A stretch of DNA of 42,495 nt from NCBI GenBank assembly GCA_024231695.1, contig JAAEQF010000047.1, positions 1 through 42,495 on the forward strand. The letters are read 5' to 3'. Every line of letters begins with the position of its first letter. Positions within the stretch are counted from its first letter, which is position 1. The notes beneath the pieces are model-generated. The model ran no database searches, was not told the DNA's origin, and saw only the letters and a program-made list of their open reading frames with translations. The stretch is from FCB group bacterium (GTDB taxonomy: Bacteria > Zixibacteria > MSB-5A5 > GN15 > JAAZOE01). The translations under genes were made by a program, and so were the position numbers. Below, one piece after another: positions 12,611 to 37,717 of the stretch.

Positions 12611-13020
12611 CGTTTACGCCCTTTCCAGGTCATTGACGATTTGATCAGGCGTTTGACCGTACGGACAAACTCTTCCACGTCGATCGGCTTTTCAAAGAAG
12701 CATTCCGGCGGCGGTATCTCATCGTCCGGGACAAAAGAATGGATATCAAATTCGCCGTCGGTAGTCACTCCACTGATTATGATAACCGGAATGTGTTTCC
12801 GGTTGTCTCCTCCGCGCAAATGAGTATAAAACGTCAGGCCCGATTTTTTCGGCATCATTATGTCCAAACAGATCAGATCGGGACAAAAACGGTCGAGCTT
12901 CTCCATCCCGTCATCGACGCTGTTAGCCACCTGTGCTTCGAAACCGTTGGCCTGCAGGGCCATCTCCAGATAGGTGGACACATCGGGCTCATCATCAATT
13001 ATCAGAACTTTGCCGCTCAT
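12607..13020 (-). CDS. Single-domain response regulator
   Basis: A 137-residue receiver without output domain. Acidic residues are D9/D10, the phosphorylation site is D53 (LICLDIMMPKKSG), and a serine (VIIISG) stands in the switch threonine place. The conserved lysine is in FFEKP. There is an insert of about ten residues before that lysine (HSFVPDDEIPPPE). The gene starts inside the last 26 bases of the NrfD-cytochrome gene and ends overlapping the kinase start, so electron-transfer and signalling genes are physically coupled in one transcript. The family is certain; the partner is inferred to be the adjacent kinase. Confidence 0.92.
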   Translation of the reverse strand: MSGKVLIIDDEPDVSTYLEMALQANGFEAQVANSVDDGMEKLDRFCPDLICLDIMMPKKSGLTFYTHLRGGDNRKHIPVIIISGVTTDGEFDIHSFVPDDEIPPPECFFEKPIDVEEFVRTVKRLIKSSMTWKGRKR

Positions 13021-14875
13021 TCAATTCTCCCGGGTCAGGCAAAATGACATTGTTTATACCGAGCTCATAATCTTCAATTCGCACGCCATCTTTCAGGATG
13101 TCCGGCGGAAGGCCGGCATGGCAGGTGGGACAGAGAGCCAGTTTAGCCCGGTTTTCGTTTTCGGCCGCTTTCTGCCGGTGGCAGACAATGCAATTGCGAT
13201 GCATGACGTCCACATAGGACGGCGCCAGATAGCTCTCGACGGCGATTTTTGTCCCTTCCGGATAAAGGTCAAGATGGCAGTCATTACAGGTTTTTGCCGA
13301 TTCTTTTTGCCGTTCTTGTTCGGGTGCGTGGCAGTCAAGACAGGCCAAGTTGCCTCCGTTTTCGTCCGCATGCCAATCATGATTGAAAACGTCGTTAACG
13401 GAGTACATACTGCGATGGCATTCCCAGCAGCCACTCTCTTTATCGCCGGGCAAATTCATATGATGACAACCGACACAAGAGGTAGTTCCGCCCAAGCTGT
13501 CGATATGGGCGGCATGATTGAATCCGGTGCCATAACCGTCATGGTTGCCGTCGATATAAAGTACATCTCCTCCCCGGGCTTTATGAGCCGGTGTAGGATC
13601 GACACCCTGACTGGCTATCTTATCATCCGGGATGAATGCGAAACCAAGGGCAAAACTGAGGACAAAGGCCAGCGAATACCGAGTTCGGGCGGCCGTACCG
13701 GGGACTCCCAGCCAGACCCGCGAGGAATAGTCGAATTCCGGCCGGGCGTGGGCGTCAGCTTCCGGATGCGAAGGGCGGCTTTCCCAGATATGAAGTTTTT
13801 CGATGGCGAAGAGAAAGACCAGACCGGCCGCGGAAACCACGCCGAGGCTGATGGCGATTTCCATCCAGGATGGTATATATGTGCTCCCGGTGGAGCTGAC
13901 CATGGTCAGGCCACCGACATTGATCCGGTTGAAGATCATTCCGAAAACCACCAGAAACGATCCGGTCCACTGTCCGCCGGAACTGCCTCGCAGGCGAGGT
14001 ACAGAGAAGATGATTATGGGGATGATGACCGAGATCAACATCTCCAGAATAAAGAGATTGCCTTCCCAAGTTCCGGCGAAAATCAAACCCATTTCCCCGG
14101 AGGCGGCGATGTCGGCGATTTTGATCAGAAAGTAGACAGCCAGCACCCATACGGCGGCTTTCATCAGACCCGACACCAGATCGTTTTCCGGTTTGCGTCG
14201 GTACAACCAGTGGGAAGCCAGGCTTTCCAGTGAAACCATCATCAACCCCAATGCTACCGCCGAGATGAAAAACATTACCGGCATTATCGGGGAATACCAA
14301 AGTGGGTGCATTTTGTATGGCATAATGAGAAACAGCGATCCGAGTGATGATTGGTGCAGGGTCGAGAGCATAATTCCCAGCAGAACCAAAGGGAAACGCA
14401 ATCTCATTATGAACGATCGGATTTTGGCGTAGCGGCTGAACTCCTCGAGCGGCACAGGACTGAATTCCAGCAGCAGGACGGTAGTGTAGAGCATGACGCA
14501 CCAGCCGACCTCGAACAGGGGCGAGTGAGGGTTCCAAAAGACGATCATATGCCAGATGTTCCAGGGCAAACCCAGATCGAACATCAATCCGCAAACTACG
14601 GCTATATAACCGAGAAAGGCGGTCAGAACGGCCGGCTTAACCAGTGGATGGTATTTCTCGCGTTTGAACATATAAAAGATGGCGGTCATGACAAAGCCGC
14701 CGCCGGCCAAAGCGACTCCGGCCATGACGTCAAAACCGATCCAGATTCCCCAGGGGGTGGTATCGGTAAGATTGGTCGTGGCTCCAAGGCCGAAAATGAA
14801 GCGGGTGATGCCGACGGCAGCGGCCAGCCCGGTCAGCATCCATAGAACGGTTTTAGTATTGCGCACTCTGTTCAT
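12995..14875 (-). CDS. NrfD/DsrP-type quinone-interacting membrane protein fused to a hexaheme cytochrome c
   Basis: A 626-residue fusion. Residues 8-360 form an NrfD/HmcC/DsrP-like integral membrane domain with about ten helices. This type of subunit exchanges electrons with menaquinone and sits beside a four-cluster ferredoxin. An extra hydrophobic segment (RYSLAFVLSFALGFAFIP, about 399-416) then leads into a soluble domain with six CxxCH heme sites, at residues 467, 483, 512, 530, 562 and 582, plus further His residues for distal ligation. That segment probably acts as an internal signal anchor delivering the heme domain to the periplasm. In Hmc, Tmc and Dsr complexes the NrfD-type and cytochrome subunits are normally separate proteins. 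It overlaps the ferredoxin gene by one base and the receiver gene by 26. Confidence 0.9.
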   Translation of the reverse strand: MNRVRNTKTVLWMLTGLAAAVGITRFIFGLGATTNLTDTTPWGIWIGFDVMAGVALAGGGFVMTAIFYMFKREKYHPLVKPAVLTAFLGYIAVVCGLMFDLGLPWNIWHMIVFWNPHSPLFEVGWCVMLYTTVLLLEFSPVPLEEFSRYAKIRSFIMRLRFPLVLLGIMLSTLHQSSLGSLFLIMPYKMHPLWYSPIMPVMFFISAVALGLMMVSLESLASHWLYRRKPENDLVSGLMKAAVWVLAVYFLIKIADIAASGEMGLIFAGTWEGNLFILEMLISVIIPIIIFSVPRLRGSSGGQWTGSFLVVFGMIFNRINVGGLTMVSSTGSTYIPSWMEIAISLGVVSAAGLVFLFAIEKLHIWESRPSHPEADAHARPEFDYSSRVWLGVPGTAARTRYSLAFVLSFALGFAFIPDDKIASQGVDPTPAHKARGGDVLYIDGNHDGYGTGFNHAAHIDSLGGTTSCVGCHHMNLPGDKESGCWECHRSMYSVNDVFNHDWHADENGGNLACLDCHAPEQERQKESAKTCNDCHLDLYPEGTKIAVESYLAPSYVDVMHRNCIVCHRQKAAENENRAKLALCPTCHAGLPPDILKDGVRIEDYELGINNVILPDPGELNERQSSDN

Positions 14876-15636
14876 TATTCGTCCTCGTCGCTGTGGTTAT
14901 TTCCGGTCAGCTTCATCCGCCGACGGATAATCCAATTTATCCCGTACATCACTCCACCCATCCCGGCAAAAGCGAAGGGTACCGATTTCATGGCCAGACG
15001 GGTGGTTTCTGGCAGCGGCGTAGTACCGCTACGGGCACCGTAGGTGAGAAAACCAAGGTCGATATCAGAGACATACAAAACCGAAGTTCCCCCGAACTCA
15101 TGCTCGCCCCAGACGCGATTAATATATTTGTCCGGACTGGCGACGATGCGCGTGTGTCCTTCGGCAATCAACTTATCCCGATCTCCGAAAACAGTCGCTC
15201 CCGTTGGGCAGGCTTCGGTGCAGGCCGGTTGTCCACCCTTTTTTATTTTTTCGAAACAGAGTATGCATTTGCGCACGTAGGGAACGGGTTGATCCCAGTC
15301 ATAACGAGGGATACCGTAAGGACAGGCCATCATGCAATAGCGGCAGCCGAGGCATTTGTCTCCGTCATAAACAACCGCTCCTTCGGCTGTCTTGTGCAGG
15401 GCGCCCACCGGGCAGGCGGAAGCGCAGGCCGGTTCCAGGCAATGGCGACATTGTTTGCGGATATAATGCCCGTCCGGTTTGCGGATGATCGAAGTCCAGT
15501 TTTGGGCCGATAAACCATCATTTTTCTGCCAGATATGCGGCCGATCAGGTTCCAGCTCGTTGCTTTCCTTGCAGGCGGCCACGCATTCCAGACAGCCGAT
15601 GCATTTGGTGATGTCGGTTAATATAGCTGCGCTCAT
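14875..15636 (-). CDS. Four-cluster [4Fe-4S] ferredoxin subunit (HmcB/DsrO/NrfC-like)
   Basis: A 253-residue electron-transfer subunit with sixteen cysteines in four sets: C12/15/18/22, C63/66/71/75, C95/98/101/105 and C124/127/139/143. This is the pattern of the DMSO-reductase-type iron-sulfur subunit. No Tat or Sec signal is present at the N-terminus, unlike DsrO or many HybA proteins. A single hydrophobic segment (about 213-232, PFAFAGMGGVMYGINWII) followed by RRR would anchor the C-terminus. The side of the membrane it works on is therefore uncertain. It overlaps both neighbours (4 bases with the cytochrome b gene, 1 base with the NrfD fusion) and should link the CCG/cytochrome b module to the NrfD domain. 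Confidence 0.93.
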   Translation of the reverse strand: MSAAILTDITKCIGCLECVAACKESNELEPDRPHIWQKNDGLSAQNWTSIIRKPDGHYIRKQCRHCLEPACASACPVGALHKTAEGAVVYDGDKCLGCRYCMMACPYGIPRYDWDQPVPYVRKCILCFEKIKKGGQPACTEACPTGATVFGDRDKLIAEGHTRIVASPDKYINRVWGEHEFGGTSVLYVSDIDLGFLTYGARSGTTPLPETTRLAMKSVPFAFAGMGGVMYGINWIIRRRMKLTGNNHSDEDE

Positions 15637-16337
15637 ACCGGGGCTCCTTTCTTGTTCAGAGTCGTACAGACATCATCATCGGTGTCGGCCGGAAAGCGCC
15701 AGGCCAGATTGGAAATGATCTGCGACAGGGGCATCAATATGCAATGGGCGATTTTAGTGAAAGGCATCAACAGGAAGATAACGTCGGCCGAAAGGATGTG
15801 AATCAACATCAATGTCTGATAACCGGATGGACTGAGACTGACGCTGGCGCAGGCGAAACCGGAAACGAAAGGCATTATAATCAGAATCGGCCAGAGGTAA
15901 TCCTGCTTGCGGCTGATAAAACGAGAAGTTTGGCTGAAGATGCGCCCGAGGAACAGGCCAATGGCACAGACGATAGTGATAACTGTCAATACATCGGCTG
16001 TCGGCTTAGGCAGGGTGGGCCAGGCGATACCGATAGCCTTGTGCCACAGCTCGACATGAGCAAAAAGAAAAATCGGAACCAGCAATAGTCCGACATGAAA
16101 GAATATGGATAGAAGGCTATAAGCAGGTCGATTGGCCAATGCGCGGTTAAAAGGAAAGAGCCATTTGAATGTACGCCGAATAATGAAATTCCAGGGCAGG
16201 GTCGTGTCTCCGGCACGCCGGTAGGCGACGATGATGGCAATCAGATCGATGATCAAAATTCGTAAAAGGCCCAAAAGCATCACCGCCAAACTGAAGCGAA
16301 AGAGCGGTCCGCGGGCAAAATCAAGAATATTCTCCAT
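15633..16337 (-). CDS. NarI/DsrM-like membrane cytochrome b subunit
   Basis: A 234-residue protein with about five hydrophobic helices (near residues 12-38, 72-94, 114-134, 148-168 and 175-195). Histidines suited to heme b ligation lie within or beside them (H81, H94, H180, H198). It matches the NarI-like gamma subunits of the Tmc, Hmc and Dsr complexes, which pass electrons between membrane quinone and the HdrD-like FeS subunit. GGAGGAG lies upstream of the ATG at 16337, and only three bases separate it from the CCG-domain gene, so the two subunits are surely made together. Direction of electron flow cannot be read from the sequence. Confidence 0.88.
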   Translation of the reverse strand: MENILDFARGPLFRFSLAVMLLGLLRILIIDLIAIIVAYRRAGDTTLPWNFIIRRTFKWLFPFNRALANRPAYSLLSIFFHVGLLLVPIFLFAHVELWHKAIGIAWPTLPKPTADVLTVITIVCAIGLFLGRIFSQTSRFISRKQDYLWPILIIMPFVSGFACASVSLSPSGYQTLMLIHILSADVIFLLMPFTKIAHCILMPLSQIISNLAWRFPADTDDDVCTTLNKKGAPV

Positions 16338-16340
16338 TGT

Positions 16341-17807
16341 CTATTTCTCCTCCATTACTTCCTGATCAGCCGGGGGCTGGACTATCAACGATTCATCGAA
16401 GATGATCGCCTTGTAAATCAAGTCATGCAATCCAACGACCTCGCAGTCTATCTTTTGATCTTCCACTAATTCTTTCAATTGTTTTTTACAGTTGGCACAG
16501 GGAGCGACCAGGATATTACATCCCGAATTCCTGATCTGATCGGCTTTAAGCTTGCCGCCGACAGTCGTCCGATAGGGACGAATTTCATCGATTGAAACCG
16601 TCCCGCCGCCGCCGCCGCAGCAAATATTGTCTTCTCCGGTCGGGGTCATCTCGACATAGTTTTTACAGAAGGCTTTGAGTATTTCCCGTGGTTGATTCAC
16701 GATCCAGCCCTGCCGGGCGATATTGCAGGGGTCGTGGTAGGCGACTTTCTCAGTGACTACATTAGGGTCGAGTTTCAAACGCCCCTCTTTCCAGACCTTG
16801 TATGTATATTCCATTATGTTGACTACCGGGAAGGCGTCTTTGCCTCCGCAAAAGGTGGGTAAAAAGAGTTTGGCCGAACGGGTGGCGTGACCGCATTCAC
16901 CGATCAGGACTTTTTTGCCCTTGAGTCTTTTGGTCTCGGCGTCTATTTTTTTGACCACTCGCTCCAGAATCCGGTCGCTGTAGAAAAGGCCGTAATTGAT
17001 GCCGTCGAAATATCCGGTGCCGGTTGTCCAGGAATCCCCGGTGGCGGTGAAGACGGCGGCAATACCCATCAGCGTTTCCGCCTCCATTAGAAAATCACTG
17101 ACGGCCGGATAGAAGACAAAATCGGCGCCTTCGACATCTAACGGGAAGGGAATATTAACCCCTTTTTCCTCCATCATATCCTCGGTCAGGAATTCGAGGG
17201 TGTCGACCAGCGCCGGAACAGGGATAGCCGAGGTATTGCCCGAGGTGCCTTCCAGCTGTTCACGAGTACTAACGACCAAAGCCCGCGGAGCTATGCCGAT
17301 TTCGCTTAGGATGTAGCGGCCAAGATGAGTAATAAGGCCGTGATCGATACCGGAAGGACAGTCGTTAACACAGCGACGGCAAGCGGTGCAGTTCCAGAAA
17401 CTATCGGCCATCTCCTGAATCTTTTCGTCGGTTAGATAGCCCGACCCGACTAACCGCCCGACCAGCATACCGCCCATAGTGAAATGCCGGCGGTAAACGC
17501 CCAGCAGTAGTTCCGAGCGATAACAGGGGATGTCTTTGGGATCTCCTGTGGCCTGATATACCTGGCAGGTTGTGGCACAGCGTGAACATTTGGCACTCAT
17601 GCGCACATAATGATCGAGAGCCAGACGGTAATTGGAGTGTTTTAGAATGGCGGCGAAGGCCTCCAAAAACCGTTGGGGACGATTGGTCGTATCAAAATTC
17701 TCAATATGATAGAGGACATCAAGTTTCTGCTTCTCGATCACCTCCGGTTTTCTGGCCGAGGTATAGGCTCGTTTGCGTTCCTCGGAGTTTATTACTTTTG
17801 TCCTCAT
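16341..17807 (-). CDS. HdrD/DsrK-like iron-sulfur protein with CCG domain
   Basis: A 488-residue cytoplasmic subunit. An N-terminal bis-[4Fe-4S] region has C74/C77/C81 with C95, and C140/C143/C146/C150 (CTACRRCVNDCP). The C-terminal half carries a complete CCG motif: C361 (YHDPC), C396-C397-G (NICCGGGGG) and C437xxC440 (APCANC). In heterodisulfide reductase and DsrK this motif holds the non-cubane catalytic cluster acting on disulfides or thiols. An earlier half-domain around C305 (GECGHA) is degenerate. This is the subunit expected to touch the cytoplasmic substrate. GGAG at -9 supports the ATG. TmcB, HmcF and DsrK are the closest named relatives I recognise. No DsrAB or DsrC is in the window, so a sulfur role is not established. 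Confidence 0.92.
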   Translation of the reverse strand: MRTKVINSEERKRAYTSARKPEVIEKQKLDVLYHIENFDTTNRPQRFLEAFAAILKHSNYRLALDHYVRMSAKCSRCATTCQVYQATGDPKDIPCYRSELLLGVYRRHFTMGGMLVGRLVGSGYLTDEKIQEMADSFWNCTACRRCVNDCPSGIDHGLITHLGRYILSEIGIAPRALVVSTREQLEGTSGNTSAIPVPALVDTLEFLTEDMMEEKGVNIPFPLDVEGADFVFYPAVSDFLMEAETLMGIAAVFTATGDSWTTGTGYFDGINYGLFYSDRILERVVKKIDAETKRLKGKKVLIGECGHATRSAKLFLPTFCGGKDAFPVVNIMEYTYKVWKEGRLKLDPNVVTEKVAYHDPCNIARQGWIVNQPREILKAFCKNYVEMTPTGEDNICCGGGGGTVSIDEIRPYRTTVGGKLKADQIRNSGCNILVAPCANCKKQLKELVEDQKIDCEVVGLHDLIYKAIIFDESLIVQPPADQEVMEEK

Positions 17808-21628: not shown

Positions 21629-22489
21629 ATGACCTACTCCATAGCCACGATATCTCTGGTCATTATTTTTGCCGTTTTATCGATTGGCCGAATTGTGAGA
21701 GCGCTTACTCGGAAACGCTTCCTGTTCGATTCGTATCTGAGTTATTCATGGCTATTTTTCCTCAGCCTTATTGTATCAGAACTGATTTCTTTTTCGATTG
21801 GTATTTGGATACTTGCGCTAGTAAGTTTCTGGGCCATTAGAGAATACCTTTCGTTGATAGATATTCGGTTGCAGGATCGCCTGGCGATATTCGGAGCCTA
21901 TCTCTCGATTCCATTCATGTATTATTTCATTCAGATTGAATGGTATGGAATGTTCATCGTATCAATCCCTGTTTATGCTTTTCTTGCTATTCCGCTTCTG
22001 GTAGCCCTTGGTGGTAAGAAGACCGAGGGTACAGTCTTCTCCATAGGCTCAATCGATTTCGGCTTGTTTCTCTTTGTGTTCTGCATCGGCCACATTGGCT
22101 ATCTTTCGCTCTACTCGTCGTGGATGGCGGCCTTGCTGATTGTCAATGTGTTAGTATGCGATGTAGCGATCTGCATGGTTCATCGAAAGTTTACAAAGGT
22201 TTGGGTAAGACTGATTGCCTCCTATTTTCTGCCGGTCCCCTTCATAGTGGCGATTTCCCTGGCGCTGTCGGGGTGGACCGAGATCCCTGCCGGGCACTCG
22301 GTTATATTATCCCTGATGATACCTCTCCTGGTGATAATGGGGCATCAAGCCGGCAGTTATATTAAGGCCGACCTCGGTATAAAAGAGGACTTACTGATTC
22401 CGGGTCGGGGGCAAATACTCGACAATCTTCAGTCATTACTCTATGCGGCGCCGGTCATGTTTCACTATATACGATACTTTTTAAGATGA
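21629..22489 (+). CDS. CdsA-like membrane protein (phosphatidate cytidylyltransferase family) with altered signature
   Basis: A 286-residue polytopic membrane protein with about eight hydrophobic segments. Near the C-terminus it carries a recognisable version of the CDP-diglyceride synthase signature (GSYIKADLGIKEDLLIPGRG, then QILDNLQSL, from about 242). The canonical form is S..KR....KD...L.PGHGG..DR.D; here H is R, the second G is Q, and DR.D is DN.Q. The fold is probably kept, but the metal-binding acidic residue is changed, so standard CDP-diacylglycerol synthesis is doubtful. GGAGG lies eight bases before the ATG. It overlaps the next gene by four bases and is the first of three coupled genes, all of lipid-type families. 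Confidence 0.8.
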   Translation: MTYSIATISLVIIFAVLSIGRIVRALTRKRFLFDSYLSYSWLFFLSLIVSELISFSIGIWILALVSFWAIREYLSLIDIRLQDRLAIFGAYLSIPFMYYFIQIEWYGMFIVSIPVYAFLAIPLLVALGGKKTEGTVFSIGSIDFGLFLFVFCIGHIGYLSLYSSWMAALLIVNVLVCDVAICMVHRKFTKVWVRLIASYFLPVPFIVAISLALSGWTEIPAGHSVILSLMIPLLVIMGHQAGSYIKADLGIKEDLLIPGRGQILDNLQSLLYAAPVMFHYIRYFLR

Positions 22490-23931
22490 ACAAACCGACT
22501 GACATAACGTTTTGGGCGATGCTTCTGCATGTTCTCTTACTGCGACCACTCGTGAAGTTGTTTTCGGGAATTAACGTGGCAGGCAAAGAAAATCTGGATC
22601 ATCTCAGGCAATACATCATTATAGCCAATCACAACAGCCATCTTGATATTTTGCTTTTATTCTATCTATTGCCAATCAGCCACATTGTGCGCACGCATCC
22701 TGTTGCCGATAAGCCCCATTTTTCCAAATCGCGCCTTGTTTTTCGACTGGTGGACTTTTTTTTCAAACCAATCTGGGTCACACGGGGAAAGCCAAACCTT
22801 GCGGATGATCCTTTTCGTGAAATCAAGAGAATTATTGACGCTGGGCAGAATGTTATCATTTTCCCTGAAGGCACCCGCGGCGTTCCGGGTGAGATGCAGC
22901 ATTTCAAGAGCGGAATTGGGCGACTGATGACACAGTATCCAGAGATATCGATTGTCCCAGTCTTCCTGATCGGCCCTGAACGGGCGTTACCCAAGGCAAG
23001 CGCTTTGCTCCTGCCGTTCTGGAACAGCATTATTGTGGGACCACCTCAATTATGCACTGGTGGCCACCGCGAGATCACCCATCGCCTGGAGGATATCCTG
23101 ATCGAACTTTCTCGATCTGAATCCGCTCGTAGACATAAAAGAAAGCCCCACGAGCCGAGGGCAGTCAAGCATATTGCCTTTCTGGGTATTGATGGTTCGG
23201 GGAAGAGCACGACTTCACGGATGGTGGCCGCAGCCATTTCGGATTCCTCAAAAGTCTGCCTTGTCAGTGATGAACTGCAATTTTTCGAACAGGGCCGGGC
23301 CAGACAAATACAACCATTAATTACGGAAAGATTACGACAAGTCATTAGCGGTTACGCAAAAAAAGCGAAATCATTAAAGCTTTACAAAATTCCGAAGCTG
23401 ATGGAACTCCTCTTGAGAAACCAACTCCTCAAAGAAGCGGAACGGTGGTACTCTCCTGACCTGATAGTCATGGATGGTTCTCCACTACTTAACTTATTGG
23501 CATGGTCAGTTCTTTACAAGAAAGACACAATAGACGAGGTCACATGTTCTACGGCTCTGGCCATTCTTAGCGGTCGTGAGGGGAACATCAGACGCGATGA
23601 TCCAATCTTCGACCACTTTCCGGAGCTTGCCCATTTGAAGCGTTTGGGTCTGACAAAACTGGCCCTTCCGGATATCGTGATTCTAATTGATCTTCCTCCG
23701 GAAGTGGCCTGTCAAAGAATAGAAACCAGGGGCGAGCAAAAGCAGGTGCATGAAACTGCCGACAAACTTGATCGGTTACGCCGGGCCTACCTTCAGGTGT
23801 GTGGAGTCGTGCAAAAAGACTGGCAAGTTTCTACTGTGATTCTGAATGGCGAGCAAACTCGCGAAGACCTCTGCCGCGCGGGCATTGAGTTAGTGAGGAA
23901 ATCTATTGGTACGGGGGACTTGAGTGGATGA
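22486..23931 (+). CDS. PlsC-type acyltransferase fused to a thymidylate-kinase-like P-loop domain
   Basis: A 481-residue two-domain protein. Residues 1-210 match lysophospholipid acyltransferases: the catalytic H49-x4-D54 (NHNSHLD) and the glycerophosphate-binding FPEGTRG (126-132), with a hydrophobic N-terminal segment for membrane contact. After a basic linker (RRHKRKPHEPR) comes a P-loop kinase domain (228-475) with Walker A GIDGSGKST (234-242), a central VMDGSP, and a lid-like RIETRGEQKQVHETADKLDRL resembling thymidylate kinase. Each half looks complete, so the fusion is genuine and not a frameshift product. The start overlaps the CdsA-like stop, and the stop overlaps the next start. The acyltransferase role is likely; the kinase substrate is unknown. 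Confidence 0.88.
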   Translation: MNKPTDITFWAMLLHVLLLRPLVKLFSGINVAGKENLDHLRQYIIIANHNSHLDILLLFYLLPISHIVRTHPVADKPHFSKSRLVFRLVDFFFKPIWVTRGKPNLADDPFREIKRIIDAGQNVIIFPEGTRGVPGEMQHFKSGIGRLMTQYPEISIVPVFLIGPERALPKASALLLPFWNSIIVGPPQLCTGGHREITHRLEDILIELSRSESARRHKRKPHEPRAVKHIAFLGIDGSGKSTTSRMVAAAISDSSKVCLVSDELQFFEQGRARQIQPLITERLRQVISGYAKKAKSLKLYKIPKLMELLLRNQLLKEAERWYSPDLIVMDGSPLLNLLAWSVLYKKDTIDEVTCSTALAILSGREGNIRRDDPIFDHFPELAHLKRLGLTKLALPDIVILIDLPPEVACQRIETRGEQKQVHETADKLDRLRRAYLQVCGVVQKDWQVSTVILNGEQTREDLCRAGIELVRKSIGTGDLSG

Positions 23932-24926
23932 ACAACAAGATTGCCGTTGTCGCAACGACGATCTCCGGATCGATCAAGGATTGGGGAAAGGTCAAGCGTA
24001 TCGTCCCTCTGTTTCATCAGTATGGAGAGACGGATGTTAATCTCCACACAGTGGACAGTCATGTTGATGCCCGTCACATAACCAGTGAGCTTGTTCAGTC
24101 CGGCAGCAACATTGTTATCTCCGCAGGAGGGTCGGGAACATTCAATGCCGTCCTCGAGGGCTGTTTTGACTCCGGCAGAAATCTGGACGATCTGCGGCTT
24201 GGCTTCCTGCGCAAAGGATCTGCTGATCTCATTGGCAAGGTTCTCGGAATGCCGGATGAAATCGAAAAGGCAATTAGCGTTTTTGTGAATGCGATCGACA
24301 GGAATCGAGTTGTCCCATGTGATGTCATCCGGGCTGTCAGCGAGGGAGGCGATTCTCCTGCTCGACGGTTTGTAGGTTATGGAGGGGCTGAACTGTTTGG
24401 CCGGATACCACACTATACGGAGAATCGCTTTATCAAATACTACAAGGGTTTGCTGAGCCAGGCATTCGGTGATCTCGGTCCTTTTTTTGTCGGCACCAGC
24501 CTGGCGATTATGGAAAAACTGCTTAAAACCATTGGCCGGAAGAAGCGAAACTGGAAAATTATAGCTGATGACGATCTGGTTTCTCAGGATTATTTTCAAT
24601 CCATAATCATTGTCAATGGTGACCTTGGCCCGGATCTTCCCTTTGCCAAATCCGAGCCCCTCGGCTCCGGAAAATTCTATCTTTTCGCCATCAAAGATAT
24701 TGGTGCCATCAAGTTGTTGGGGCAGTTGAAACACGCATGGAATTCGTCAATTATGGAAGAACCCCAAAAATGGGGTTTCGAATCTTTTTGCATTGAGAAG
24801 AAACTGATTCTGGAGCCCGATGGGGCCGATGTGTTCCCGGTTAATGTCGATGGTTCAACTTTGGAATGCCGTATTTCAGCCTCTTTCGAAATCTGTGACA
24901 AAATTCATCTATTATCTGCGCAGTAA
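23928..24926 (+). CDS. Diacylglycerol/sphingoid-kinase-like protein with altered GGDGT motif
   Basis: A 332-residue soluble protein of the DAGK catalytic superfamily (YegS/DgkB/LCB5 type). The nucleotide-binding hallmark GGDGT.N appears as GGSGTFN (67-73), with Ser for the Asp. A later GFLRKGSADLIGKVLGMPDEIEKAI corresponds to the family's GTGNDFA region. The C-terminal half (SQDYFQSIIIVNGDLGPDLPFA; SGKFYLFAIKDIGAIKL; VFPVNVDGSTLECR) has the usual beta-sandwich with the DGE-like end as VDGS. Length and order match the family. The changed Asp may alter or abolish phosphotransfer. It is the third gene of the coupled lipid cassette; no terminator is obvious after it. Confidence 0.85.
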   Translation: MNNKIAVVATTISGSIKDWGKVKRIVPLFHQYGETDVNLHTVDSHVDARHITSELVQSGSNIVISAGGSGTFNAVLEGCFDSGRNLDDLRLGFLRKGSADLIGKVLGMPDEIEKAISVFVNAIDRNRVVPCDVIRAVSEGGDSPARRFVGYGGAELFGRIPHYTENRFIKYYKGLLSQAFGDLGPFFVGTSLAIMEKLLKTIGRKKRNWKIIADDDLVSQDYFQSIIIVNGDLGPDLPFAKSEPLGSGKFYLFAIKDIGAIKLLGQLKHAWNSSIMEEPQKWGFESFCIEKKLILEPDGADVFPVNVDGSTLECRISASFEICDKIHLLSAQ

Positions 24927-25687: not shown

Positions 25688-25996
25688 AGCATCATCTCCT
25701 TTGAAATCATCAGTAACGCCGTTCAGGAATGCGTCCTGAGCGTTTACATCTTCAGGTAGTCTGGACAACGATACTTGAAATCTAACAAGTGGTATGTGCG
25801 ATGTCAATTGCCTCACGGCAGTTTTATCCATCAGTTGAGGGTTTGGCTGGAGCCCATTAAAATACTCTGCAAATGTGTCTGCTGCCTGTCATAAAAATCT
25901 TGCGCCCGGGTATGTCAGTGGATTAACTTTCTATATCAATGATTCATCACCTGTGACAGTTGCCGGTCTTTACTATCCGGCCATTAGGGAGGTTAC

Positions 25997-27711
25997 ATGC
26001 GTCTGTTGTCTACCATACTCTCGAATGTAATAATAATCGCCATAGTGCTTTTAACGGAACCTTTGTGGCCGGTTCCGATTGCGACGGCTGCAAACGGGCG
26101 GGGAAACTTGAAGAATGCACCGCCGATGATCCCATGGGCAAAGTCATCCCGAAAGGAAGCGACCATCAACCCACCGGCGATATGTGGGATGATGTCACCC
26201 AGCCCAGCGGTAATTATTATAGTGGTCTGGAGGCATTCTGCGTGTCGATAAAGACACACCTTAATGAGCTGTTTCTACCCGACTGCTTTGGAATTCTTGG
26301 CACTGAGAAAGTCGAGGCTTTACGCAAAAAAGCAGAGGAATTAGGTTGGCCTGAAGCTGTTATTCCAAAGAATTACAAACAACCGGAATACTCGTTCGAT
26401 GTGGACTTTGTGTCCGGACTTGAGAACCAGTTCCGAGAGCGTGATAATCGCCCCGTTGTCGGACGGCTGAAAGTATCAATGTACTTCGAAGGCAACGAAC
26501 GCGAGTTGGTTCACGAATGGGAGGCCGAAGGTACGCTCGACGTTGTCTCGGGCGGAAGTACCAGTTATTCAGGATATATGAATAGGTTAAGGAAAGCCTA
26601 CAAAGAAGGTCCAAGTATCACAGAAATAATCGACGAATTTGAAAAGCGCCCGGATGACTGTCAGATGAAACTGGAAGAGGAGGTGGTCAAGCTCGGGCAG
26701 GTTATTGAGATCGAGTTGAGTGATTTCAAGGATGTCATGGGTGAAACCTCACGCGAGTTCAACCGCGTGATGCTTCAGGCGCTTAACGGTAAGATTCTAA
26801 ACGGAATGCCAAGTAAATACTCTGATGGTCTGCGTATATTCCCGGTGGGCGAAGAACCTATCAAGATCAAGTATCAGGCGCCAGATAGTTGCTATACCTC
26901 CACTGATTCGTTGATAATCAACAGTACCTGCGATATTCTCGACGAAGAACGTGAGCCATATGCCGACACTGAACTCGACGAGCAGATTCAAAGCAAGGCT
27001 ATTCCACTTTTCTGTCCCGGCGTGTATGCGATCATGACGGTAACGCAGAAAAAATCGAGCAAATGGGACAAAAAAGTGCGGGGCAAGATCGACCGCAAGG
27101 ATTGGAATCAGACAACGTCACTTACTGTGCGGGTGGATTTCGATAAGGAACCGGCCGAAGTGCGCCAGTCTTTTGACCTGACAACCATGACTTCGGTACC
27201 CGACCGCTATCGATACAAGCCGGTCAAATGGACGATTAACTCGCCACAGCATAGCGGCAGCGGTAGCTCCCTTCAGAAGAAAGAGGGTGGGAATGGTATT
27301 GATTTTTTACTGGAGTCGTCATCGTCCGAAACAGGCGTTTTTACAAATCTGAGGCCGACACAGTCGGAAATAATGTTGACAATCGACGTCGACCCGGCCA
27401 CGGGAAAGGCCATGCAGGTGTCTGTCCCGGCATACGAGGCTGATTTGAACATGACTACTACCAAGAAGTGCACCAAAAAAGAACGACGCATGGTGGACGG
27501 TTATGACAAGCTGGTAACCGAAGACTGCAGTGATTCCTGGAAACATGAGAGCACATACTCGGTTGGGCACGCCGAGGATGAATGTTGGGAGATTTCAGGT
27601 GGTGACGGCATCTCAAGCATCTCCGGTGAATGTCAGCGAAGAATCGACAGGGACAACGGTTATGAGGAGATAGAGTTCCGGTGGAGTATTACAATCCAGA
27701 ATGAGTCTTAA
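25997..27711 (+). CDS. Secreted protein of unknown function with probable frameshift after the signal peptide
   Basis: The long reading frame (stop at 27711) is open from about 25960 but there begins with an implausible N-terminus. The ATG at 25997 has a perfect GGAGG site and encodes a good signal peptide (MRLLSTILSNVIIIAIVLL..., cleavage near ATA-A), but lies in a different frame. A one-base change in the G-rich run at 26096-26103 would join the two. The mature part (~550 residues) is Cys-containing, beta-rich and unrecognised. Its last ~180 residues resemble those of the gene at 28794-30743: a QSFDLTTMTS.P.RY segment, DVDPATGKA, and CWEISGGDGISSISGECQ. It opens a run of secreted paralogues. 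Function unknown; the family relation is clear. Confidence 0.65.
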
Positions 27712-27750: not shown

Positions 27751-28740
27751 GTGAAAGATAACAGACTAACCGGTTTAATAGCAGGAACCATCTTTATACT
27801 GGCCATTAGCGTCTTTTGTGGTCAGGCGCATTCGTCGGGATTTGTAGCCGACCTGGTAGTAGTAGCAAACAGTGATACTCTGATAAGCAGGATTTTTGTA
27901 CTGGGTCAAAAATTTCGCATTGAGACAGAAGAAGATGGTCAGCAAATTGTCGTCATCGTCGAGCAGGAGACGGGCATAACCAAAGTGATTAACATAGACG
28001 AAAAGGCATATCTGAAAGTGCCCGCCAATGACATGAGAAGCCATGATAATGATCCCTTCAGTAGTCTGAGATACACGTTGACCATACCCGATGCCGAAAT
28101 CAAGCAACTCGGAACGGAAACGGTTTCCGGTGTTGAATGTGAAAAAAAAACAGTCTCGTATGACGGCATCGACTACTTCACTCAGTGGGTGTCAGAGCAG
28201 CATGAACTCCCTCTGAAGATCATTGCACTCAACGAGCCTGACAATCTGGTGAAAATGACAAACATCAAGGATAGTACTATTGGTGATGAGCTGTTCGAGG
28301 TGCCGGAAGAGTACACTGCGGTGGGTGGAGAGCAATCCCAAACTCAAGATCAGTTCGTGGAAAGAGAACCAGTTTTCCCGGAGTGGATGAAGGATGCATC
28401 TGCGGCGGAATTGGTGGAGCTTCCGATGAAAAAAGAATTGCTGGCGGGTGAGATGATTCGTATCAAGGTCCTGGCTGGCAAGGATATCTTTGTTCTCGCA
28501 ATCAACAACAACGATGGCAAATCCGTTTTTCTGGCTATTCCTTGTCTGGGCGGCCAACCTATCGACGATCCTTCCAAAGTGTTTGCAGAATATGGTGAAA
28601 CCAGGATGTATCGCATGGAAATACAAGATCAGGCATGGCCGATGAATTTAACGGAAACACCCGACCAGGCTGACGAGGTTCTGATACGTGTGGATAAGGG
28701 TCAAGTCAATATGTTGACCCAGTATACCAATAAGCCGTAG
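27751..28740 (+). CDS. Secreted DUF4412-like protein (paralogue of 30818-31807)
   Basis: A 329-residue exported protein starting with GTG (27751) behind AAGGAG. The signal peptide covers residues 1-27 (cleavage near AHS). The N-terminal ~200 residues resemble DUF4412/LolA-like beta domains: FVADLVVVANSDTLISRIFVLGQKFRIE, then VINIDEKAYLKVP and SGVECEKKTVSYDG. The C-terminal 110 residues form a second module (ELLAGEMIRIKVLAGKDIFVLAINN...) ending VLIRVDKGQVNM. It is the same length as, and similar throughout to, the minus-strand protein 2 kb downstream. It sits between two larger secreted paralogues and is probably co-transcribed with them. Role in the envelope unknown. Confidence 0.8.
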   Translation: MKDNRLTGLIAGTIFILAISVFCGQAHSSGFVADLVVVANSDTLISRIFVLGQKFRIETEEDGQQIVVIVEQETGITKVINIDEKAYLKVPANDMRSHDNDPFSSLRYTLTIPDAEIKQLGTETVSGVECEKKTVSYDGIDYFTQWVSEQHELPLKIIALNEPDNLVKMTNIKDSTIGDELFEVPEEYTAVGGEQSQTQDQFVEREPVFPEWMKDASAAELVELPMKKELLAGEMIRIKVLAGKDIFVLAINNNDGKSVFLAIPCLGGQPIDDPSKVFAEYGETRMYRMEIQDQAWPMNLTETPDQADEVLIRVDKGQVNMLTQYTNKP

Positions 28741-28793
28741 TCAGGTTTTGCCGGACAGAGAATCAGAAATTATCCCAAATGAGGAGTGAGGTC

Positions 28794-30743
28794 ATGGTCA
28801 GACAAAGTATTAGAATATGTAGTATCGCTTTGGGACTTGCTTTTCTTGCGGTTCTGTATCAACCCGCATTTGCCCAGGAAGATGAATGCTCAACACCTAC
28901 GGTAGCTGTAAGAATACAGCAAATCTTTGATTATCCTGATGATATAGGCATTGGCTCTGTTTTTGATGAACTCAACAAGAAGGTTAAAAAACCAAAGAAA
29001 AAAGAGGAATGGCGGGCTGAAATCGAGGCGGCGGTGATAGCAGAACTTCGGAAAAATTCTCAAGAAATTAAATTTATTCAGAATGGCTCCGATTGCGATT
29101 ACTTCTTCAGATATATTCTGATACCATATGGCGTTGGCGAAGAGTTTGAAGTGCGTCCGGGTGTGTGGAGCAGCGAATTTGTAGGTTTTTTGATGCTATC
29201 GTGCCTGGGTACTGAGAAATCGTGTATCGGATATCGTCCAAGGCTAGTATTATGCATCTGTCAGGGTGAAAACCGGGATATCTTTCAGGCAATTATCAGC
29301 AACGTTGGATATTATGGAAATTTAAAGATGAGAATTGCAAGGTATGAGAAGAGATTCCCGGTACCACCCAGAGGTCCCAAAATAAACAGGTCTCTTGATC
29401 GGGATTATGTATCACCCCTGGAAGGAGAAACCGAACTAAACATCAAAGTTCAGGTAACCAATTGCAAGGGGGATCCTGTCTTTGACAGATATCATCGGGA
29501 ACAGAAAGTTCTCTATCAAAGAAAAACAAAAAGAGGTGAACTCACAGCTGACGAGGATTTTAATTACTACGATTTGGTGGACAAGCATAATAGCGATGCC
29601 AATTATCTAGTTCTAGGTATTTACCAGCCTAAAGGAGTATCTGCAAGATACACCCTTCAGAAAGGCATCGAAGCCAGTCTGGATAGTGTTGAGATAAAAA
29701 CATGCGGGCGTAAAAAAGACGCTATTGATACGGCCGAAGTTAAGATCATGGGACTGGATTTAAAAGTTTCTGCTCGCAAGAAGGAACTACTACCGATGCA
29801 GAGCACACAAATCGATATCAGTTTTAACAAGATTGGTCAGGAAGGCGGAAAAATCCCCATAGCCGGTAAAACGGTTCAGATTAAGGTCAGCGGACTGGTC
29901 AACGGCACAGTTTACCCACAGGGGGATGTTGAAACCAATTCACGCGGCCAAGCGACCCTTACATATACAGCCGGTGATCAGGATGAGGAAGTTACCTTCC
30001 GGGCCAAATTCCAGCCGAAGAAATTCAAGGAATTCGTCCAGGACAAAGCCAAGGTAAAAGTCATTAAGTTTGATCGACTCTGCCAGATAACCAGGAAATC
30101 CTCTCATACTACCGACTATACAGAAAACTTATATAATGAGGTTAGAACGCACAAATGGACCGAAATCTCGGAAATCACGATATCAGTAACCTTTAACGAT
30201 AATCCGAGGGTAGATATTGCGTTTGATCCGGTAACGATGCAGAGTAAGCCCCGTCGGTATGTGTATTACGTGGATGATTACTGGATCAGCTCAAGCTACC
30301 ACACGGGTAGTGGGAGTAGGGAGGAAACGGTCGGCAGCGGCGAGCATATTCAAAGGCATATTTCTTCATCAAATAACCAAAATGGGACGTTTCAGGATCT
30401 TCAACCGAGCAACGATGATGCTCGGATGACAGTAACGGTTGACCCGGCCACCGGCAAGGCCACTGAAATCGGTCTTCCTTCTTTTGGTGCTGTGATCTCC
30501 ATAATGAACCAAAGCGATTGCGATGGCGAGAAACGGGTGGAGGGCCGACTGGAACCGTTTGACTGCAGCAGTACCAATCAATACACCCAAGATTTTCCAA
30601 TTCAGTCGTTCCGGGAGAAATGTATGGAAATCTCTGGTGGTGATGGCGTACAGATAATAAGGGGTCAGTGCAGAGAAAACAAAAACACCAGCCAAGGCTC
30701 TAAAGAAGAGAGTTTTGAGTGGGTTATATATATCAAAAAATGA
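28794..30743 (+). CDS. Large secreted protein with Ig-like domain
   Basis: 649 residues from the ATG at 28794, for which GAGGAGTGAGG provides the ribosome site; an ATG at 28779 lies within that site. The signal peptide ends near AFAQ. An N-terminal ~250-residue region is unrecognised and may bind a small ligand. It is followed by a bacterial Ig-like beta domain (about 325-430: LKVSARKKELLPMQSTQIDI, then GTVYPQGDVETNSRGQATLTYTAG). The C-terminal ~190 residues match those of the 25997-27711 protein, with DVDPATGKA in that one versus TVDPATGKA here, and EISGGDGVQIIRGQC. A strong hairpin follows the stop. An extracellular or periplasmic structural role is likely. Confidence 0.8.
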   Translation: MVRQSIRICSIALGLAFLAVLYQPAFAQEDECSTPTVAVRIQQIFDYPDDIGIGSVFDELNKKVKKPKKKEEWRAEIEAAVIAELRKNSQEIKFIQNGSDCDYFFRYILIPYGVGEEFEVRPGVWSSEFVGFLMLSCLGTEKSCIGYRPRLVLCICQGENRDIFQAIISNVGYYGNLKMRIARYEKRFPVPPRGPKINRSLDRDYVSPLEGETELNIKVQVTNCKGDPVFDRYHREQKVLYQRKTKRGELTADEDFNYYDLVDKHNSDANYLVLGIYQPKGVSARYTLQKGIEASLDSVEIKTCGRKKDAIDTAEVKIMGLDLKVSARKKELLPMQSTQIDISFNKIGQEGGKIPIAGKTVQIKVSGLVNGTVYPQGDVETNSRGQATLTYTAGDQDEEVTFRAKFQPKKFKEFVQDKAKVKVIKFDRLCQITRKSSHTTDYTENLYNEVRTHKWTEISEITISVTFNDNPRVDIAFDPVTMQSKPRRYVYYVDDYWISSSYHTGSGSREETVGSGEHIQRHISSSNNQNGTFQDLQPSNDDARMTVTVDPATGKATEIGLPSFGAVISIMNQSDCDGEKRVEGRLEPFDCSSTNQYTQDFPIQSFREKCMEISGGDGVQIIRGQCRENKNTSQGSKEESFEWVIYIKK

Positions 30744-30817: not shown

Positions 30818-31807
30818 TTATGGCTTCTTGTTATACTCAATCTTCATCATAACCTGCCCCTGATCGACACGAATCAGCACCATATCCGCCTGATCGGGAG
30901 TTTCGGTCAGAGTAGTCGGCCGGGCTTGACCTTCCATCATCAGATTATAAGTGCGGGTTCCCCCATATTCAGAGAATACGACCGAAGGATCTTCTATCGG
31001 TTTGCCGTTCAGACAGGGAATAGCATTAAAAGTGGAATTGCCGCCGTGGTTGTTGATTCCATTAACAAAGATGTCCTTACCGGCCATGACTTCGACACGG
31101 ATCATCTCGCCGGCCAGCATAACTTTCTCCAGGGGAAGCTGTACCAGCTCGGCTGAGGCGGCATCCTTCATCCACTCCGGAAACCCGGAATCCTGTTTCA
31201 CAGGCTCGGCCGGAGCAGCAGGCGGGTCATCGCCCATTATAGTATAACCTTCCGGCACAACAAACAGGCCGTCATCAATGGCGGTTTCCTTGATATTGGC
31301 CAACTCTATCACCATATCGACTGTAGCGTGAGCCACGATTTTCAGAGGGAAATCGTGTTGGCTTGACACCCACTGAGTGATGAGATCATTTCCGCCATAC
31401 GAAACTACCGACTTGTCGCACTCTACACCCGCGACGGTTTCCTTGCCCAGCGGCTTGACGCTTGCATCCGGTATGGCCGCCGTATATTTCAGGCTCTGGA
31501 AGGGATCGTTGGCGAGGCTGCCGAAGTCGTCACAGGGCATCTCCATGTAGGCCTTTTCGCTGATGTTGATCGCCTGTGTCACATTGGTTTCCTGATTGAC
31601 GATAATGAAAATTTGTTGACCGTTTTCCATCAATTCCATTCGATACTTGAGTCCCTTGACGAAGATCTTGCTAACCGTTGTGTCACTATCGCCGATTTCG
31701 AGCATGTCGGCGGAGAATTCGGCCGATAACGCCTGACCGCAGAACACTGTCACGATAATCATGGTGACGGCCACGGTCAGCCTTTTTGCATACATTCTTC
31801 TGATCAC
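30818..31807 (-). CDS. Secreted DUF4412-like protein (inverted paralogue of 27751-28740)
   Basis: A 329-residue protein with a GTG start at 31807 behind GGAGGAACC. The signal peptide ends near ALSA. It follows the same plan as its plus-strand relative: FSADMLEIGDSDTTVSKIFV, then INISEKAYMEMP and AGVECDKSVVSYGG. A proline-rich hinge (PPAAPAEPVK) leads to the second module, which ends VLIRVDQGQVMM. The two genes face each other across the Ig-like protein gene and are in inverted orientation, so they arose by duplication with rearrangement. It lies 52 bases after the LemA gene in the same direction and is probably the last gene of that operon. Function unknown. Confidence 0.8.
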   Translation of the reverse strand: MIRRMYAKRLTVAVTMIIVTVFCGQALSAEFSADMLEIGDSDTTVSKIFVKGLKYRMELMENGQQIFIIVNQETNVTQAINISEKAYMEMPCDDFGSLANDPFQSLKYTAAIPDASVKPLGKETVAGVECDKSVVSYGGNDLITQWVSSQHDFPLKIVAHATVDMVIELANIKETAIDDGLFVVPEGYTIMGDDPPAAPAEPVKQDSGFPEWMKDAASAELVQLPLEKVMLAGEMIRVEVMAGKDIFVNGINNHGGNSTFNAIPCLNGKPIEDPSVVFSEYGGTRTYNLMMEGQARPTTLTETPDQADMVLIRVDQGQVMMKIEYNKKP

Positions 31808-34756: not shown

Positions 34757-35965
34757 ATGGCGATAATTGCAGTAGTCAGTGGTTCATATTGTTACGGTGA
34801 GGAAATCGTGACCGAAGTGTCCAAGCGTCTTAATTACCGCAGGGTTGACGGTGTCTTGTCTGAGGAAACTTCTAAAAGATATAAGTTAGGCAAAGATCAG
34901 GTGCTCCGTTCCATGATCGGTACTGCGCCGTTTCTGAATATCACCTCGAGTAAACACAAGAGAAGTCTTGGATATCTTGAAGCTACATTGGCTGAATTGT
35001 TACAATCCGACAATGTAGTCCTGAGCGGATGTGCCAGCTATATGATTCCGGGTAACATCTCTCATGTTTTGAAGGTATGTATTATAGCCAACCACAGTTT
35101 CCGGGTTAGGCAGGCGGTTAAGATCGAGGATATATCGGATTCAGAAGCTGCCACCAAAATCATGGAATACGATAAAGGAATCTCGTCCTGTTCGAACCAT
35201 CTCGTGGAACAACCGGCCTACGACGAAAGTCTTTTTGATCTGGTGATTCCAATGCACAGCACTTCTGTTGACGAAGCGGTTGAAATTATCTGCAACCAGT
35301 CCGTTTCTGACGCAGTGAAAACAACCGTCAGATCTCGTGGCATCATGGAAGATTATCTTCTAAGCGCCAAAGTAAAACTTGAACTCACTCTGGCAGGGCA
35401 TGACGCAAACGTGTATGCGGAAAACGGCGATGTGACCATTGAAATCAATGAGCAGGCCATACGGATGGGGAAGCTGGAAAGCAAATTGAAGGATATCGCC
35501 TCTACAGTACCCGGCGTGCTGAGAGTTTCCACGAAACTTGGCCCCAAAGCCGCTCCACCGTCATTAAATCCGTGGGATAGAATTGACGTACCTCCCAAGA
35601 TTTTGCTCGTAGATGATGAAAAGGAATTTGTCCACACGCTGTCGGAGCGTCTGAGGACAAGAAATCTTGAATCATCGATTGCATACGATGGAGAACAAGC
35701 GCTCGAAATGTTGAACGAAGAGATTCCAGATGTCATTGTATTGGATCTAATGATGCCGGGAATCGATGGCATTGAAACTCTCAGACGGGTAAAAGACTCG
35801 CATCCGGATGTCGAAGTAATAATCCTGACGGGTCATGGTTCCGACGAGGAGCAGGAGACGGCTGAGGATCTGGGAGCTTTTGCCTATTTACATAAGCCGG
35901 TTAATATTAATGATTTGGCGCAGAAGATGAAAGAGGCCTATGCTCATGGCAAAAGGAGGCGATAG
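34757..35965 (+). CDS. Cytidylate-kinase-like domain fused to BON and receiver domains
   Basis: A 402-residue fusion. Residues 1-190 resemble the stand-alone cytidylate-kinase-like family (AIIAVVSGSYCYGEEIVTEVSKRLNY; later RVRQAVKIEDISDSEA and HSTSVDEAVEII). The nucleotide loop lacks the usual GSGG, so it may be a non-catalytic sensor. Residues about 204-262 form a BON-like domain (VKLELTLAGHDANVYAENGDVTIE...VPGVLRVSTKL). Residues 280-398 are a receiver with D286/D287, phosphorylation site D330 (VIVLDLMMPGIDG), threonine in IILTG and lysine in YLHKP. It is the first gene of the signalling run leading to SulP and may join nucleotide sensing with phosphorelay. The domain calls are good; the biochemical role is a guess. 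Confidence 0.82.
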   Translation: MAIIAVVSGSYCYGEEIVTEVSKRLNYRRVDGVLSEETSKRYKLGKDQVLRSMIGTAPFLNITSSKHKRSLGYLEATLAELLQSDNVVLSGCASYMIPGNISHVLKVCIIANHSFRVRQAVKIEDISDSEAATKIMEYDKGISSCSNHLVEQPAYDESLFDLVIPMHSTSVDEAVEIICNQSVSDAVKTTVRSRGIMEDYLLSAKVKLELTLAGHDANVYAENGDVTIEINEQAIRMGKLESKLKDIASTVPGVLRVSTKLGPKAAPPSLNPWDRIDVPPKILLVDDEKEFVHTLSERLRTRNLESSIAYDGEQALEMLNEEIPDVIVLDLMMPGIDGIETLRRVKDSHPDVEVIILTGHGSDEEQETAEDLGAFAYLHKPVNINDLAQKMKEAYAHGKRRR

Positions 35966-36013: not shown

Positions 36014-37717
36014 ATGAATGATCAGACGCAACATGCTGTTCCGCCTCAGAGCGAACAACAGAGCAGTCTTCCGAGATATCGTCGGCTGCGCCGAAATCTT
36101 ATTATTGTACCGTTTTTAGCCGCGTTAGTGCCCCTTTTAATAATGGCCATTATTAATTATTATCAGGACTACAATGCCTATAAATCGGAAAACTATTTTA
36201 CTGTTTCCCATTTATTGTCCAATTCGAAACGCTCCCTGCAGTTTGCGGTAGAGCAGCGCCGAGCCGTCCTATCTTTGATTGCCAGAGGACAATCTCTAGA
36301 TGATTTGAGTGATGACGCCAGATTGATGGCTATTCTGAGAGATTTGAAGGAGTCGTTTGGTGATTTTGTGGATTTGGGGTTAATCGAGTACGAAGGGAAT
36401 CAATCTTATTATGCGGGCCCTTACGACTTGAAGGGTATTAACTACAAGGATCAATCATGGTTTCATGAAGTATCGCTCAGGGGTACATATGTGAGTGATG
36501 TTTTTATGGGTTATCGAAAATTCCCGCACTTTGTTATTGCCTTCGCTCGCGAACTGGAAAACGGTAAATTCTATGTGTTAAGAGCAACAATTGACACCAG
36601 ATTGCTGAACCGTCAGATTTATGCTCTTGAATCAAGTGAACCGGTTGATATCTTTATAACTAATAAAACCGGTGTCTTGCAAACGGCATCAACATTTTAT
36701 GGCGACGTACTCGACACTTTCAATTTGAAATTTCCGTCGCACATTCTTGACCGAGAGATAATCGATGAGCGCACTTTGTCCGACGGACTCAATGTAACCA
36801 TGGGGGTTGCCAGTATCGACGATAGTCCTTTTGTCCTGGTGGCTATGCTGCAGCATCGGAGTGCGTTTCTGCATTGGATCTCCAAGCGATCGGATGTTGT
36901 CTGGTTCCTTTTGGCCAGCATGATAGGAATACTGGTGACGGTCTCATTGCGTTCCAAGTATATTGTATCTCGGTTGCAGGAATCTGATACCCGCCGGGCA
37001 AAAACTTTGCATAATATCGAATATACGAACAAGATGGCTACTCTGGGAAGGCTATCTGCCGGTGTGGCCCACGAAATCAATAACCCGCTGGCCATCATTA
37101 ATGAAAAGGCCGGTTTAATCAAAGATATTGCATCGCACCAGCCTGACTTTCCTAAAAAGGAAAGAGTCATGGATTTGGTGGATTCGGTTACCTCTTCTGT
37201 AGAGCGTTGCAGTCGGGTTACTCATCGGCTACTCGGTTTCGGCCGTCGTATGGAGTTTCGAAAAGAACACATAGATATGGAAACGTTAATAAATGATGTC
37301 CTCGACTTTCAGCGATCAGAGGCCTCCCATAGAAACATTAAGATCGATTTGAACACGGAATCCGACATATCAACCATCCAGAGTGATCGAGGGCAACTGC
37401 AACAGGTTTTTTTGAATCTTATCAACAACGCCTATGCCGCGTTGGATGATAACGGGAAAATCGACATTAATATTCGTCAATTGAACGCTGACGAAGTTGA
37501 AGTAGCTATAAGCGACAACGGTGTTGGTATTGATAAAAAGGATTTGGATCACATCTTTGAACCGTTTTTCTCAACCAAGGGTGAGTCGGGCACCGGCCTT
37601 GGATTATCAATCACCAAAGATATTATTGAAAAACTGGGTGGAATTATTGTTGTCTCAAGTCGGGTCGGCAAAGGAACGTGTTTTACCGTCAATTTACCTG
37701 TGGAGAGATTAGGTTAA
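36014..37717 (+). CDS. Membrane histidine kinase with dCache-like sensor
   Basis: A 567-residue sensor kinase. The first membrane helix is at about residues 29-50 (LIIVPFLAALVPLLIMAIINYY) and the second at 294-314. The ~240 residues between form an extracytoplasmic dCache-like sensor (YYAGPYDLKGINYKDQSWFHE, then YVSDVFMGYRKFPHFVIAFAREL). Next comes the phospho-accepting H353 (LSAGVAHEINNPLAII), then the ATPase with NLINNAYAAL, DNGVGID and GESGTGLGLS. The kinase core is intact. The gene sits 48 bases after the kinase-like/receiver fusion and 11 before a single receiver, so these form a phosphorelay. The sensed ligand is unknown, possibly an anion relevant to the SulP transporter downstream. 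Confidence 0.93.
   Translation: MNDQTQHAVPPQSEQQSSLPRYRRLRRNLIIVPFLAALVPLLIMAIINYYQDYNAYKSENYFTVSHLLSNSKRSLQFAVEQRRAVLSLIARGQSLDDLSDDARLMAILRDLKESFGDFVDLGLIEYEGNQSYYAGPYDLKGINYKDQSWFHEVSLRGTYVSDVFMGYRKFPHFVIAFARELENGKFYVLRATIDTRLLNRQIYALESSEPVDIFITNKTGVLQTASTFYGDVLDTFNLKFPSHILDREIIDERTLSDGLNVTMGVASIDDSPFVLVAMLQHRSAFLHWISKRSDVVWFLLASMIGILVTVSLRSKYIVSRLQESDTRRAKTLHNIEYTNKMATLGRLSAGVAHEINNPLAIINEKAGLIKDIASHQPDFPKKERVMDLVDSVTSSVERCSRVTHRLLGFGRRMEFRKEHIDMETLINDVLDFQRSEASHRNIKIDLNTESDISTIQSDRGQLQQVFLNLINNAYAALDDNGKIDINIRQLNADEVEVAISDNGVGIDKKDLDHIFEPFFSTKGESGTGLGLSITKDIIEKLGGIIVVSSRVGKGTCFTVNLPVERLG

Follow-up and report, generated by a model that had tools for sequence, protein, structure and literature searches.

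A candidate mobile lipid module that joins a PlsC-kinase fusion to CdsA-like and diacylglycerol kinase-like proteins with replaced catalytic residues

In the CDP-diacylglycerol synthase (CDS) of Thermotoga maritima, TmCdsA, Asp219 and Asp249 bind the catalytic metals (PMC7018664). Asp81 of sphingosine kinase 1, the equivalent of the GGDGT aspartate, is the proposed catalytic base (PMC6148460, and likewise PMC9045371), and its mutant is inactive (PMC4466670). Here we describe three genes encoding relatives of these enzymes, found in a 42,495-nucleotide stretch (the window) of a Zixibacteria genome: contig JAAEQF010000047.1 of assembly GCA_024231695.1, positions 1 to 42,495 of the forward strand. 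They encode a CdsA-like protein, a PlsC acyltransferase fused to a thymidylate kinase-like domain, and a diacylglycerol kinase (DAGK)-like protein. Paralogues of housekeeping enzymes, the three proteins are inherited together and kept under purifying selection. The cassette probably does lipid-related work outside the described pathways, because an intact fusion sits between relatives of housekeeping enzymes whose catalytic residues have been replaced.

The same three genes stand in the same order in seven environmental genomes of the Zixiibacteriota and the Electryonea/Hatepunaea group, so their association is far beyond chance. Profile searches spanned two phyla. The kinase-domain, DAGK-like and CdsA-like profiles each matched the identical five of the 133 genomes of the window's phylum (G000, G003, G032, G130 and G133), and the kinase and DAGK-like profiles matched the identical two of 39 genomes of the second. 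The CdsA-like profile search gave a few additional weak matches (about 1e-9); the one in G003 is a canonical CdsA and the others are taken to be canonical CdsAs as well. Among 99 relatives the fusion is full-length in G003 (90%) and G032 (60%). A scan of genome contigs added Candidatus Electryonea clarkiae, Candidatus Hatepunaea meridiana and a Zixiibacteriota metagenome-assembled genome identical to G003. Because GTDB at large was scanned with two strict peptide patterns, relatives in other groups were possibly missed. The preliminary description of this DNA had proposed that the genes form one unit, and this is borne out: they co-occur without exception, residues of the same kind are altered each time, neither phylum yielded one gene lacking the other two, and no canonical motif aligned elsewhere in the proteins. 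The fetched neighbourhoods of the seven loci share no neighbouring gene.

The open reading frames and Pfam matches also confirm the trio and the two four-base overlaps given there. All four domains pass the curated Pfam cut-offs (E-values: CTP_transf_1 2.9e-12; Acyltransferase 1e-20; Thymidylate_kin 6.2e-11; DAGK_cat 1.1e-11). None of the curated NCBIfam models among the matches listed for the three proteins reaches its cut-off, which makes all three divergent members of their superfamilies. The features of the cassette are as follows.

21629..22489, + strand: CdsA-like polytopic membrane protein (PF01148), 286 amino acids, CDP-diacylglycerol synthase catalytic residues lost
22343..22345, + strand: codon of H239, the residue aligned with the metal ligand Asp219 of TmCdsA; all seven copies have H or Q here
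22421..22432, + strand: DNLQ replacing the DRxD of the CDS signature, last residue at the Asp249 position; Q or K in all seven
22486..22489, + strand: ATGA start/stop overlap of genes 1 and 2, kept in all seven loci
22486..23931, + strand: PlsC acyltransferase and P-loop nucleotide kinase-like domain in one 481-amino-acid chain (PF01553 and PF02223)
22570..22965, + strand: PlsC domain (PF01553), with HX4D (NHNSHLD, 22627-22647) and EGTR (22867-22878) both intact
23167..23895, + strand: kinase domain (PF02223), with Walker A GIDGSGKST (23185-23211) intact
23473-23484, + strand: DGSP at the presumed position of thymidylate kinase DR[YFH] (our reading; hhalign gave no placement)
23716-23754, + strand: arginine-rich lid RxxxRGExxQVHE of the kinase domain, conserved in all seven copies
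23928..23931, + strand: ATGA start/stop overlap of genes 2 and 3, as in the window sequence
23928..24926, + strand: diacylglycerol/sphingosine kinase-like protein (PF00781), 332 amino acids, altered site
24126..24140, + strand: GGSGT replacing GGDGT, identical in all seven copies
24210..24239, + strand: RKGSADLIGK replacing P-x-GT-x-NDF-x-R, the aspartate of the ND pair becoming leucine; identical in all seven

Genes 2 and 3 overlap by 4 to about 20 bases in six of the seven loci, whereas in G003 four bases separate them. No usable signal exceeding the shuffled expectation came from scans for promoters and terminators.

The CdsA-like protein scores 47.5 bits against PF01148 (curated cut-off 24) and aligns with 10 housekeeping CdsAs at an hhalign probability of 97%. 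A Protein Data Bank (PDB) sequence search with its profile gave zero matches. Like CdsA (PF01148; T. maritima CdsA, E. coli CdsA and YnbB) it is a hydrophobic multi-helix membrane protein, and its C-terminal stretch, ...LGIKE-DLLIPGRGQILDNLQSLLYAAPVMFHY, aligns with known CdsAs. Unlike them, all seven cassette copies have lost the equivalents of Asp219 and Asp249, the KR, HGG and DR residues, and the SPxKTxEG loop that is conserved in CdsA. The signature KDX5PGHGGX2DRXD is missing throughout, the window copy reading KE-DLLIPGRGQILDNLQ, and only five of the 40 residues invariant in the housekeeping proteins are retained in every copy, in a shallow alignment in which all residue comparisons rest on seven cassette sequences. 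The two metal-ligand columns, fixed by their 27- and 30-residue spacing and in agreement with the hhalign register, hold D and D in 10 of 10 housekeeping CdsAs, and H/Q and Q/K in the seven cassette copies. With both metal-holding aspartates gone, CTP activation through known CdsA chemistry is very unlikely. The reaction order in the preliminary description, acylation, phosphorylation and then CTP activation, is therefore unsupported, as its last step has lost its known chemistry. Since the replaced positions differ among copies, a role in structure or binding would fit the pattern.

The DAGK-like protein shares its predicted two-domain fold with the soluble diacylglycerol and sphingosine kinases (DgkB, YegS and SphK1; PF00781). 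Its AlphaFold model (pLDDT 74.5) resembles DgkB and sphingosine kinase 1 with a TM-score of about 0.65; against DgkB 2qv7, Foldseek gave an E-value of 1.5e-15 and a TMq of 0.65, consistent with the family fold. It differs from these kinases in its GGSGT, in the GTxND motif, which reads GSADL in all seven copies, and in a highly conserved insert, TENRFIKYYKG..LFGDLGPFF. In the MAFFT alignment the DGE of motif 5 reads DGS or DGA; the aspartate is retained and the glutamate has become serine or alanine, at a position where the glutamate varies in housekeeping copies too. In alignments made with MAFFT, hhalign and HMMER against housekeeping and PDB relatives, the two substitutions first named (DN.Q replacing DR.D, and GGSGT replacing GGDGT) stay in register, and the alterations in both proteins extend beyond them. 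The earlier view that these proteins are unlikely to carry out housekeeping chemistry is supported. The CdsA-like protein lacks both metal-holding aspartates, and the DAGK-like protein lacks the equivalent of the residue whose mutation inactivates sphingosine kinase 1. As the DAGK-like replacements are identical in all copies, their pattern suggests a new function for the site.

The fusion, alone among the three proteins, keeps recognisable catalytic motifs in both its domains. NHNSHLD, FPEG[TS]R and GIDGSGKST are conserved in all seven copies, and its full-length identity to the copies of the six other genomes is 50-90%. The acyltransferase half (PF01553, 74.3 bits) resembles PlsC and other lysophospholipid acyltransferases in its intact HX4D and EGTR. 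It differs in being joined to a kinase and in reaching half the cut-off score of the 1-acylglycerol-3-phosphate acyltransferase model TIGR00530 (52.2 bits against 102.95). The other half (PF02223, 42.8 bits, cut-off 27) shares the Walker A motif, the lid arginines and the C-terminal half of the Tmk profile with thymidylate and deoxynucleoside kinases (PF02223, PF01712). Unlike those enzymes it forms the C-terminal part of a PlsC fusion, falls below the cut-off of the dTMP kinase model TIGR00041 (44.4 bits against 83.25), and apparently has DGSP in place of DR[YFH]; DG[SL]P occurs in all seven copies, and its equivalence to DR[YFH] is our own reading. A further difference is that the cassette genomes carry a Tmk besides the fusion. 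In open-licence papers we found nothing relevant on a PlsC-thymidylate kinase fusion or on a lipid operon with pseudo-enzymes.

That the cassette has moved as one block, and recently, follows from the comparison of G000 with G003, which belong to different genera of one family. Their cassette proteins are 90-93% identical and the proportion of synonymous differences (pS) is 0.20-0.29. In other orthologue pairs shared by G000 and G003 it is 0.60-0.80, and in four genes on the window's own contig 0.71-0.79. Pairs with a pS of 0.08-0.31 and a high proportion of nonsynonymous differences were excluded as controls, being apparent shadow frames opposite real genes. The ratio of nonsynonymous to synonymous substitution rates (dN/dS) is 0.13-0.16, so the cassette has been maintained; this value comes from the one pair, all other pairs being saturated at synonymous sites. 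Across the two phyla the cassette proteins are about 50-67% identical, where housekeeping CdsAs are 33-48% identical and most housekeeping Tmk pairs 30-46% (up to 50-65% within the phylum). The CdsA-like and DAGK-like proteins are as conserved as the fusion. The G+C content of the cassette tracks each host region, so composition shows no recent foreign donor. Although the window comes from a fragmented assembly of 1001 contigs with 7.9% contamination, its contig behaves like its family.

A housekeeping role for the cassette was rejected: each of the seven genomes has a full-strength thymidylate kinase apart from the fusion, and a canonical CdsA lies elsewhere in four (G003, G032, G099 and G100) of the five searched with PF01148, a set that comprised all but G130 and G133. 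In the fifth, the fragmented assembly G000, that search found only the cassette copy. G000 thus differs from all other surveyed relatives in having no detected canonical CdsA, which deserves mention as the cassette protein looks inactive; the cause is probably an assembly gap.

The reading we favour, with somewhat less than even confidence, is that the cassette is a mobile lipid-modifying module in which the fusion is the catalyst and the proteins on either side have been repurposed as its partners. No other reading of the locus is as economical as a single active bifunctional enzyme with two such partners. Several points weigh against this reading. The AlphaFold model of the CdsA-like protein is too poor (pLDDT 65, with zero structural matches) to add to the sequence similarity from which its fold is deduced. 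The DAGK-like protein may have built a new active site from its conserved polar residues, and would then be more than a non-catalytic partner. The module's activity, its substrate, its lipid and any contact among the three proteins are inferred at most. If all three proteins were active with altered chemistry, they would form a dedicated pathway: the fusion would acylate and phosphorylate, the DAGK-like protein with its GGSGT would phosphorylate or bind an unusual lipid, and the re-made site of the CdsA-like protein would transfer a nucleotide. Conservation across genera and phyla and the low dN/dS of the measurable pair suit such a pathway, and a new active site, unlike decay, would give identical replacements in every DAGK-like copy. 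However, the CdsA-like protein lacks both metal-binding aspartates and the SPxKTxEG loop, and the variation at its replaced sites fits loss better than a new catalytic centre, which leaves a fully active pathway unlikely, at about one chance in four.

We consider it clearly less probable that housekeeping enzymes finish the product of the fusion and that the flanking proteins are regulators sensing phosphatidic acid, CDP-diacylglycerol or diacylglycerol through their retained folds. Both do keep their family similarity despite the loss of catalytic residues, and housekeeping CdsA and Tmk coexist with the cassette, but the ligand binding is itself a prediction and the permanent linkage of regulators to the fusion would go unexplained. 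A slightly smaller chance goes to an accessory survival or anti-phage module acting through membrane lipids or nucleotides. Its patchy occurrence (five of 133 and two of 39 genomes), movement as a compact block, absence of fixed neighbours and mixture of an intact enzyme with pseudo-enzymes would suit such a role. Against this, the best PADLOC match, VakA (9.8e-9), reflects the shared thymidylate kinase fold and none is convincing; no defence gene was recognised next to the window copy (the PADLOC scan did not take in the neighbours of the other six loci); and the DAGK-like protein has zero relatives in the phage collection, the plasmid collection or the viral contigs. On the PADLOC result and this lack of DAGK-like relatives we set a defence system aside as improbable. 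The plasmid matches of the fusion, among those listed, are ordinary PlsC proteins at 34-39% coverage. It is very improbable that the cassette consists of housekeeping lipid gene copies that are redundant or in decay. The lost catalytic residues, and the absence of the non-essential cassette from most relatives, would fit decay, but the frames are open in seven of seven copies, co-occurrence is strict and the recently transferred copy is intact; decay was rejected on a dN/dS well below 1 together with conservation across phyla.

In the favoured reading, a lipid-modifying module with the fusion as its catalyst, the cassette would be stand-alone and horizontally mobile and would act at the membrane, on a lipid or its precursor. 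The fusion would couple acyl transfer to ATP-dependent phosphorylation of a small acceptor, perhaps a nucleoside, polyol or sugar-like head group; dTMP would not be the acceptor, because the DR motif seems lost. The CdsA-like protein would be a membrane docking or substrate-presenting partner. The new fixed site of the DAGK-like protein (GGSGTF...LRKGSADLIGK...TENRFIKYYKG) may bind a lipid or nucleotide or run a changed reaction. We suggest tentatively, and think it less likely than the favoured reading, that this is a new lipid system, an acyltransferase-kinase with a pseudo-CdsA and a re-engineered DAG-kinase fold that makes an undescribed lipid or signal and has spread between phyla as a unit.

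An operon that permanently couples pseudo-enzymes of phospholipid synthesis to an active acyltransferase-kinase would be unusual in bacteria, and we know of none. Should a distinct lipid be its product, the module would be a transferable lipid trait of poorly known phyla and a minimal three-gene set that can be directly expressed and assayed. With its conserved replacement of catalytic residues, the cassette is also a natural experiment on the repurposing of CdsA and lipid kinase folds.

Beside the cassette of G003, L032:3850-12216 encodes two long proteins with CHAT-like C-terminal regions by eye, the first with tetratricopeptide-like repeats, and a sigma-factor-like gene; this region is absent from the other cassette loci. 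In the window, two large proteins without a Pfam match (25960-27711 and 28779-30743, + strand) share a similar C-terminal stretch containing SGGDG, and DUF4412 proteins lie between them (27751-28740) and after them (30818-31807). A cytidylate kinase-like domain (PF13189) is fused to a response-regulator receiver at 34757-35965 (+ strand), with a histidine kinase after it at 36014-37717. On the - strand, 12995-17807 holds a redox cluster (an NrfD-class III cytochrome c fusion, a 4Fe-4S protein and a CCG/ferredoxin protein) adjoining FeMo-cofactor-type proteins, a DUF134 protein and a sigma-54 regulator; some of this block also occurs in G003 and G032.

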